A DNA stretch of 64,000 nt from an uncultured Oscillospiraceae bacterium (GTDB lineage: Bacteria; Bacillota; Clostridia; Oscillospirales; Oscillospiraceae): assembly GCA_951801655.1 (NCBI GenBank), contig CATONV010000002.1, positions 34,977 to 98,976 of the forward strand, read 5' to 3'. Shown here in pieces: positions 47,845 through 49,673 of the stretch. The number at the start of each line of letters is the position of its first letter. Position 1 is the stretch's first letter. The position numbers and the translations under genes were made by a program. Below the pieces are notes generated by a model. That model was not told the origin of the DNA. It did not search any database and worked only from the letters and a program-made list of their open reading frames with translations.

Positions 47845-48870
47845 TTACCGGTCGTGGTGGGGGTGGTCCATAACCACCTTGCAGGCCCGGGTGAGCTGGG
47901 CAAAGATGGTGGAACTGTACCGGCCCTCATACACGGTGAGCATGGGAATGCGGTCCAGCTTGGACAGCACCACATACTTGGGAACCAGGTTGGTAAGCGT
48001 GAGGGCTTTCACGTCTGCCTCACACTGCTTGCAGGTACACAGACCGAACTTTTTGATATACGAGGGAGCTTTTTCCTCTACCAGCGCCTGCATAATGTTG
48101 ATATAGGACACTTCCTCCTCCGGAGAGGGAGGGGCAGGCGTGGGAGCCGGCGCGGGAGCGGGAGCAGGCGCCGGTGCGGGAGAAGGAGAGGGTTCGGGTT
48201 CGGCTGCGCCCGCCAGGAGTTTTTCGATGTCCTCCTGACTCATCTTGCCGCCGGAGGGCGGAGCGGCGGGAGCCGGTGCAGGTTCAGTCTCGGCTGCGCC
48301 CGCCAGGAGTTTTTCGATGTCCTCCTGACTCATCTTGCCGCCGGAGGGCGGAGCGGTGGGTGCCGGTGCGGGTGTGGGCTCGGCTGCGCCCGCCAGGAGT
48401 TTTTCGATGTCCTCCTGACTCATTTTGCCGCCGGAAGGCGGAGCGGCAGGAGCCGGCGCGGGTGTGGGCTCGGCTGTGCCCGTCAGGAGTTTTTCGATGT
48501 CCTCCTGACTCATTTTGCCGCCGGAAGGCGGGGCGGGGATCTCAGGGACCTTTTCCGGCTGTTCTGCGGCCACTGGAGGCACCTCCTCAACTGTGGTTTC
48601 CCGGCTCTCCGCCGGGGAATCGGCGGATGTTTCCAGCTCCTCCTCCAGAGCGCGCTGGATCTGCTGGGCCAGGCTGTCGTCGTTGGCCTGGGCCACCTCC
48701 AGAATAGGTGGGAGAAGGGGGCGGGAAGGCGCGGCGGCCGGCTGTTCAGCGCCGCCCTCCGCCAAAGTTTCCTCATCGGCAGGGGCGCCCTCCCTGGGAG
48801 CGCCGGGGGCGAGTAAGTTCAAAACATGGGCAGTCTTGTTGCCTTTGGCATTCTTTTTACTTGCGGCCAT
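47845..48870 (-). CDS. ComFB-domain protein with four FliM-type CheY-binding motif repeats
   Basis: RBS aaaggag; Lys-rich N-terminus; four GGKMSQEDIEKLL repeats; C-terminal FGLCTCKQCEADVKALTLTNLVPKYVVLSKLD...FAQLTRACKVVMDHPHH matches ComFB pattern. Confidence 0.85.
   Translation of the reverse strand: MAASKKNAKGNKTAHVLNLLAPGAPREGAPADEETLAEGGAEQPAAAPSRPLLPPILEVAQANDDSLAQQIQRALEEELETSADSPAESRETTVEEVPPVAAEQPEKVPEIPAPPSGGKMSQEDIEKLLTGTAEPTPAPAPAAPPSGGKMSQEDIEKLLAGAAEPTPAPAPTAPPSGGKMSQEDIEKLLAGAAETEPAPAPAAPPSGGKMSQEDIEKLLAGAAEPEPSPSPAPAPAPAPAPAPTPAPPSPEEEVSYINIMQALVEEKAPSYIKKFGLCTCKQCEADVKALTLTNLVPKYVVLSKLDRIPMLTVYEGRYSSTIFAQLTRACKVVMDHPHHDR
48193..48537. repeat. Four in-frame 90-bp tandem repeats inside the ComFB-domain gene
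   Basis: cgycaggagtttttcgatgtcctcctgactcat(c/t)ttgccgccgga recurs at 48211, 48301, 48391 and 48481, exact 90-bp period. Confidence 0.95.
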
Positions 48871-48893
48871 GAAAACGGCTCCTTTCGGAAGTA

Positions 48894-49673
48894 TCAGGAG
48901 TGGGCGAGGGGTGTGTCGTACATCCGGACAATCTCATTGACGAGTAGCCGGAAGTCCCGGGCCACCTTAGAGTCTGGGGCGTAGGACAGCACACTCTCGC
49001 CGTGGGCAGGGGCCTCCGCCACTGCCACACCGGAGCGGATGCGGGACTGAAACACACTGGTGTCCAGCTGCTGGGCGATCTGTTCCGCCATGTCCAGCAC
49101 CTCCCGGTTGAGGGTGAAACGCTGGTTGAACTTGTTGAGAACGATGCCCAGCACACGCAGACGGGGATTGTAGCATCGACGTACGGTGTCGATGGTCTCT
49201 CGGATCTGAGATACGCCCAGCAGACTGAGAATCTCAGGGGCCATGGGAATGACCAGACCGTCGGCGGCCACGTAGGCGTTCACAGTGAGAACGTTGAGGG
49301 CGGGCGGGGTGTCGATAATGATAAAATCATAATCCCCCTCCACCTCGGCCAGGGCGTTTTTCAGCAAAAACTCCCGACCGGGCCGGTTAAACTCCAGCTC
49401 GGCGGCGGACAGCAGAATATTGGAGGGCAGGATATCCCCGCAGTCGGACTGCATGATCACGTCGCGGATATTCTGCGTACCCTTCATAACGTCGTGGATG
49501 GTAGCGCAGTTTTCGATGTCCAGCCCCAGGCAGAAGCCCAAACTGCCCTGAGGGTCCAAATCGATCCCCAGCACCCGGGCGCCCCGGCTGTGCAGGCCGT
49601 CCATCAGAGAGCTGGACGTGGTGGTCTTGCCAACGCCGCCCTTCTGGTTGGTAATAGTGATGATAGCGGACAA
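48894..49673 (-). CDS. ParA/Soj-family ATPase
   Basis: IITITNQKGGVGKTTTSSSLMDGLHSRGARVLGIDLDPQGSLGFCLGLD; DFIIIDTPPALNVLTVNAYVAADGLVIPM; TTG start with ggagg RBS. Confidence 0.95.
   Translation of the reverse strand: MSAIITITNQKGGVGKTTTSSSLMDGLHSRGARVLGIDLDPQGSLGFCLGLDIENCATIHDVMKGTQNIRDVIMQSDCGDILPSNILLSAAELEFNRPGREFLLKNALAEVEGDYDFIIIDTPPALNVLTVNAYVAADGLVIPMAPEILSLLGVSQIRETIDTVRRCYNPRLRVLGIVLNKFNQRFTLNREVLDMAEQIAQQLDTSVFQSRIRSGVAVAEAPAHGESVLSYAPDSKVARDFRLLVNEIVRMYDTPLAHS

Follow-up and report, generated by a model that had tools for sequence, protein, structure and literature searches.

Partner proteins such as ParB and McdB use the N-terminus to dock on the ATPases to which they belong and to stimulate ATP hydrolysis. 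Partners of the ParA/MinD type touch the ATPase via a charged, disordered N-terminus, the remainder of the protein serving the cargo (PMC10241942). Among the ATPases of this superfamily, FlhG is regarded together with FlhF as the conserved switch that sets the flagellation pattern; a review from 2025 leaves flagellar placement in bacteria without FlhF/FlhG open (PMC12826062). Here, an orphan ParA-family ATPase and its ComFB-domain partner are described from a stretch of 64,000 nucleotides of an uncultured Oscillospiraceae bacterium (hereafter the window). The pair resembles ParA/Soj-ParB/Spo0J in having a Soj-type ATPase and a directly adjoining partner gene whose product carries a short basic N-terminal helix, but the paired ParA belongs to a separate clade, its partner carries a ComFB domain and does not match ParB, and no parS beyond chance is present in the window. 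With FlhF/FlhG it shares a ParA/MinD-superfamily ATPase in a flagellar locus; however, no FlhF was found, the ParA is not FlhG, and neither a DQAxxLR helix nor a C-terminal membrane sequence was seen on reading it. PpfA/TlpT and ParC/ParP likewise involve an orphan ParA in a motility context with no parB, but their partner architecture is apparently unrelated. The McdA/McdB system of carboxysome positioning also joins a ParA-like ATPase to a partner unrelated to ParB; McdA, however, lacks the signature lysine (PMC9178275) that is present in the paired ParA, and the partner domain differs. Finally, the domain fold is that of ComFB (4wai) and CdgR (8hja), and the zinc-site pattern CxCxxC...C/H is shared with ComFB, but the present domain is joined to a long linker and an N-terminus of the ParA-partner type. 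We consider it fairly probable that the pair is a ParA/adaptor module dedicated to a distinct, FlhF-less flagellar system in gut Clostridia; its task is probably the placing or counting of flagella, or of receptor arrays.

The window is a flagellar locus comprising fliF, fliG, an export-ATPase gene (fliI type), motA/motB, fliM, fliY, fliP, fliR, flhB, flhA, a gene for a fliA-type sigma factor, flgK, fliD, fliS, CheC- and CheV-like genes (35076-37237) and a gene for a methyl-accepting chemotaxis protein (MCP) at 55461 (Table 1). The first-pass annotation had described parA and the partner gene as co-directional, 23 bp apart and divergent from fliD, the ParA as carrying KGGVGKTTT, and the pair as unaccompanied by parB or parS. 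All of this was confirmed: the open reading frames lie as described, with a divergent intergenic region of 124 bp between parA and fliD, the motif occupies residues 11-19, no parB adjoins the pair and the window holds no parS beyond chance. The sigma-28-like site that points at fliD is the best of 5 matches, about 2 being expected by chance with up to 2 mismatches. A long open reading frame antisense to the ComFB gene (47791-48816, + strand) is probably a by-product of composition and repeats. Elsewhere in the window (57364-60335, + strand), the gene for an FtsA/PilM-like protein precedes one with a TTG start, whose product combines a basic N-terminus with a hydrophobic stretch and has no Pfam match.

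Table 1. Positions in the window of the paired genes, their sequence elements and the flagellar genes discussed in the text.
Feature	Position	Strand	Evidence or remark
fliM, N-terminal LSQSQIDALL	24614..25603	+	
fliY, linker with GGATMSQEEIERMMAGG, motif from 26305	25624..26853	+	named from its sequence and its position behind fliM
flhA, overlapping the fliA-type sigma gene (32684); usual flhF-flhG slot empty	30570..33505	+	
Gene for ComFB-domain partner, 341 aa, ATG start behind aaaggag, first residues MAASKKNAKGNKTAHVLNLL	47845..48870	-	ORF; Pfam PF10719, 7.3e-11
ComFB domain, residues 258-337 by Pfam; C278, C280, C283 (H339 just past)	47860..48111	-	PF10719
Four 30-aa repeats PPSGGKMSQEDIEKLLxGxAEP with the FliM/FliY-type SQxEIxxLL motif	48196..48536	-	TRF
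Second conserved segment, about LPPILEVAQANDDSLAQQIQRALEEELE	48631..48714	-	alignments; helix 55-84 in AlphaFold2 model
Basic N-terminal helix MAASKKNAKGNKTAHVLNLL, proposed ParA contact	48811..48870	-	K12/T13/V16 invariant; helix 12-20 in AlphaFold2 model
parA, orphan ParA-family ATPase, 259 aa, TTG start behind ggaggag	48894..49673	-	ORF; Pfam AAA_31/ParA, 3.7e-50
Deviant Walker A QKGGVGKTT, with both the signature and the P-loop Lys	49620..49646	-	sequence; kept in paired ParAs
Sigma-28-like promoter TAAC-N15-GCCGATAA, pointing at fliD	49711..49737	+	1 mismatch
fliD, divergent neighbor, kept beside the pair in relatives	49798..52647	+	ORF
fliS, downstream of fliD	52671-53051		

The ATPase bears the hallmarks of the ParA family, KGGVGKTTT being joined by DLDPQG (Walker A') and IIIDTPP (Walker B), and all three are conserved throughout the paired clade; its nearest PDB chains are of the ParA/Soj type (4pfs, 8ray, 1wcv). 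A tree of 71 ParA/MinD proteins groups the ParAs followed by a long ComFB protein (class I) in one clade (97/99) and those followed by a shorter one (class II) in another (100/100), and the two are joined at 91/85. The ParB-linked Soj proteins constitute a separate group, and FlhG and MinD lie far off, the FlhG rows making up a 100/99 group distant from the paired ParAs. A ParB gene is found beside every Soj row of the tree and beside no paired ParA. The possibility, raised in advance, that the ParA clades with chromosomal Soj and has its parB elsewhere is thereby contradicted, the ParA being separate from the ParB-linked Soj proteins. Identification as a Soj orthologue was rejected in view of the separate clade without adjoining ParB, the lack of parS above chance in the window and the genome's own Soj/Spo0J/Noc set, which resides on another contig; identification as an FlhG orthologue was rejected on account of the distance from the FlhG rows and the lack of any FlhF above cut-off in the genome. 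The five ParA/MinD matches of this genome read as the paired ParA, Soj, a ParA with ParB on contig 56, a MinD-like and an Mrp-like protein. The contig-56 genes (L063, in G000) are a further ParA-ParB pair, possibly derived from a mobile element.

The partner consists of a basic N-terminal helix, a second helical motif, a disordered Pro-rich linker with repeats and a C-terminal ComFB domain; in the AlphaFold2 model of the full chain, both helices are present, the linker has low confidence and the C-terminal domain is folded. In an alignment of 19 family orthologues, picked by the ComFB profile and not by the N-terminus, the basic N-terminal stretch is the best-conserved part of the protein besides the ComFB domain, with invariant K12, T13 and V16; the second segment, PPILEVARxNDExxSxQIxxALExEL, is conserved as well, and the linker is not. 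Because K..KTAHVL or LE.A..ND peptides are a selection criterion of the genome scan with the partner, the statement on N-terminal conservation relies on this Pfam-selected set, which was itself too diverse for the scan, so that a closer set of 7 rows was used there. Across 87 distinct class I partners, the N-terminal stretch has a median net charge of +4, and the linker is P/A/E-rich with a median of 181 residues. The earlier proposal that the partner begins with a short basic N-terminus of the kind used by ParA-activating partners agrees with these data. The genome's own Spo0J likewise opens with a short basic stretch, followed by GLGRGLNALL. Viral contigs scanned with the partner yielded no relative. 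The sequence and conservation of the partner fit the layout of a ParA adaptor, from which we infer an adaptor role.

Conservation of the neighborhood, which the first-pass annotation had named as a check on its reading, extends far beyond the source genome. The family sample comprised 201 genomes, of which 41 encode ComFB and 46 encode FliM. A long ComFB protein directly behind ParA was found in 20 of them and the shorter class II protein in six, that is, the pair occurs in 26/46 FliM-positive versus 0/155 FliM-negative genomes (Fisher 1.6e-20, relatedness uncorrected). A partner-only scan of species genomes returned 80 loci (in 8 the partner is cut by a contig end), all 80 with ParA directly upstream and 69 with fliD on the opposite strand. 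These loci span Oscillospiraceae, Lachnospiraceae, Anaerotignaceae and others, and include Flintibacter, Lawsonibacter, Acutalibacter, Pygmaiobacter, Anaerotignum, Sporofaciens, further Lachnospiraceae and more. Locus L190 has the pair flanked by fliD-fliS on one side and by MCP-cheV-cheD-cheC on the other; in Sporofaciens, the partner gene is followed by an MCP gene, with cheV-cheD-cheC further on. Another locus (L165:8377-10074) has a PilZ gene directly behind the pair, in the same orientation, and a further PilZ gene facing it beside a gene resembling the C-terminal part of FlhB; no fliD was found near this pair, which still adjoins the PilZ and FlhB-like genes. The class II partners (L027, L036, L037, L039, L042, L049) measure about 145 aa and have N-termini of the type MAKSKKELDKDLMFSKIMPALSxNPF; three of the six loci contain a weak fliD match no more than about 7 kb away. 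A literature search found no paper uniting ComFB, ParA, flagellar and chemotaxis.

New here is the finding that the distribution of the pair is complementary to that of FlhF. FlhF scored above cut-off in 9/201 family genomes, none of which has the pair; among the FliM-positive genomes of the family, the pair is present in 0/9 with FlhF versus 26/37 without (p 1.5e-4). Among the 226 genomes of the class sample, class I ParA was found in 0/83 genomes positive for both FliM and FlhF versus 4/9 with FliM and no FlhF (p 4.5e-5); three of these four have a long ComFB protein alongside, and the fourth is the window itself. A search of 30 further pair-bearing genomes detected FlhF in none of them, the Bacillus subtilis and Thermotoga maritima controls being positive, and flhA and the sigma gene of the window leave no space between them for flhF-flhG. 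The complementary distribution suggests that the pair does the same job as FlhF/FlhG, and it puts the flagellum first among the candidate cargoes. The pair is not an obligatory replacement of FlhF, as it is also missing from some FlhF-negative flagellated genomes (5 in the class sample and about 10 in the family). Against PF02154, FliM scores about 100-150 bits in genomes with the pair and about 150-240 in those with FlhF; the pair genomes share this low-scoring FliM type and are therefore not independent, and the complementarity may largely reflect inheritance of one type of flagellar gene cluster.

The similar cluster type of the carriers also favors an explanation in which the pair was merely co-inherited with the flagellar genes while serving, for example, DNA partition or competence, for which ComFB was named. 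This we consider very unlikely, given the absence of the pair from all 155 FliM-negative family genomes, the lack of parB/parS and the locus in which the pair stands beside PilZ and FlhB-like genes even with no fliD found nearby. Another explanation, that chemoreceptor arrays rather than flagella are positioned, as by PpfA/TlpT or ParC/ParP, draws on known orphan ParAs of such kind (PMC9178275; PMC10241942), on the Sporofaciens gene order and on the MCP and cheC/cheV-like genes of the window; nevertheless, the constant neighbor of the pair is fliD and not cheA/cheW, its distribution is complementary to that of a flagellar protein, and neither a CheW nor a receptor domain is present in the partner, so that we regard arrays as an unlikely primary cargo.

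The C-terminal domain of the partner matches PF10719 with 42.4 bits against a gathering cut-off of 25. C278, C280, C283 and H339 are invariant in the 19 orthologues, and CxCxxC is found in 87/87 partners; in B. subtilis ComFB the zinc ligands are C25, C27, C30 and C88, with either Cys or His at the fourth position in homologues (PMC4381287), and the four residues of the partner correspond in sequence pattern to this four-ligand site. Modelled alone, the domain reaches a pLDDT of 95.5 and TM scores of 0.72 against B. subtilis ComFB (4wai) and 0.68 against the cyanobacterial c-di-GMP receptor CdgR (8hja), the likeness to the latter being structural, with weak sequence support (E 0.07). Assignment as a competence protein was rejected, as only the name points there and the context is flagellar. 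Across the phylum, ComFB commonly occurs as a stand-alone protein, and the source genome encodes an additional short one of 93 aa (L061:3737-4018, on contig 96 of G000). Cyanobacterial ComFB binds both c-di-AMP and c-di-GMP and affects pilus and motility proteins (PMC12313861). GGDEF genes are present in 23/23 genomes tested, with five in the source genome. The pair is perhaps controlled by c-di-GMP or c-di-AMP.

The binding properties of ComFB proteins also speak for a regulator, in which ParA and a c-di-NMP receptor steer flagellar expression or motor output, in the manner of FlhG/FleN or YcgR, and not position. FlhG controls gene expression too in other bacteria (PMC12826062), L165 has a PilZ gene behind the pair, and some partners carry FliM/FliY-like motifs. 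A Soj-type ParA next to a partner with a ParB-like basic N-terminus is, however, the layout of a positioning system, and no DNA-binding domain was recognized in the partner with Pfam; pure regulation is accordingly held to be rather unlikely.

The repeats of the linker correspond to a tandem DNA array with a period of 90 bp, 3.8 copies and 92% matches (TRF), which encodes four copies of GGKMSQEDIEKLL. Their core, MSQEDIEKLL, is of the same kind as the motifs at the N-terminus of FliM and in the FliY linker of the window, and the FliM/FliY pattern SQxEIxxLL is matched 4 times in the partner, far above shuffles. The motif was detected in 13 of the 87 partners and is absent from 74, with 0.0 expected from shuffled linkers; in the ParA tree, the single-copy cases L149 and L051 (genome G005, row L228) are placed far away from the clade rich in repeats. 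At the level of sequence, the FliM/FliY-type repeats are real but lineage-specific. The first-pass annotation had proposed that CheY motifs link positioning to chemotaxis or the motor; as stated, this is unsupported, since a motif of such restricted occurrence cannot provide the core function or a general cargo link, and CheY motifs as a universal link to cargo were ruled out by this distribution.

Motifs of the SQxEIxxLL type in FliM and FliY bind CheY-P (PMC9126983; PMC6946799), and the linker repeats could accordingly be a CheY-P sink or a tether to chemotaxis, which would be compatible with the ParA/adaptor module in the source lineage. The excess over shuffled linkers and the scattered one-copy cases favor such a role; the partners without the motif speak against it, as does the reported binding of FlhG to FliM or FliY in other bacteria (PMC12826062), by which the motif could equally bind the paired ParA or a C-ring partner. 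A contact of the C-ring type or with the ATPase is thus as open as one with CheY, and we find the CheY-P role doubtful. Between the repeat DNA and the genome's own fliY, identity amounts to 36-38 of 57 bases, which is uninformative on recent copying from fliY. In relatives (L092-L099), FliY linkers contain one to three tandem copies of a SQEEIERMM-type motif. In another genome (G506; L284 and L286), the partner linker has about 5 copies of MSDDAIAALFAQN, a loose EIDALL look-alike; the FliY linker of that genome has no match.

In the ParA/adaptor module as we picture it, ParA-ATP would dimerize, presumably on the nucleoid, since reading of its sequence showed no membrane helix at the C-terminus. 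Through its basic N-terminal helix (S/N-K-T-A-H-V-L-N-L-L), the partner would dock on the ParA dimer and stimulate ATP hydrolysis. The partner may itself dimerize via the ComFB domain, the long flexible linker spacing the ParA-binding helix from this domain, and the domain, together with the FliM/FliY-like linker motifs in some lineages, would connect to the cargo. The cargo would most likely be the flagellar basal body or C-ring and, as a second candidate, the chemoreceptor arrays. The ComFB domain may gate the system by binding c-di-GMP or c-di-AMP. A stronger version, in which ParA-ComFB is an unrecognized, second-messenger-gated replacement of FlhF/FlhG that sets the number and place of flagella in FlhF-less gut Lachnospiraceae and Oscillospiraceae, is put forward tentatively, as a possibility that we would not yet bet on. 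For flagellar placement, a conserved ParA whose adaptor bears a receptor-type domain, present in flagellated gut Clostridia with no FlhF detected, is a direct candidate. If this is true, ComFB domains would gain a role outside competence, and ParA-based positioning could be coupled to cyclic dinucleotides.
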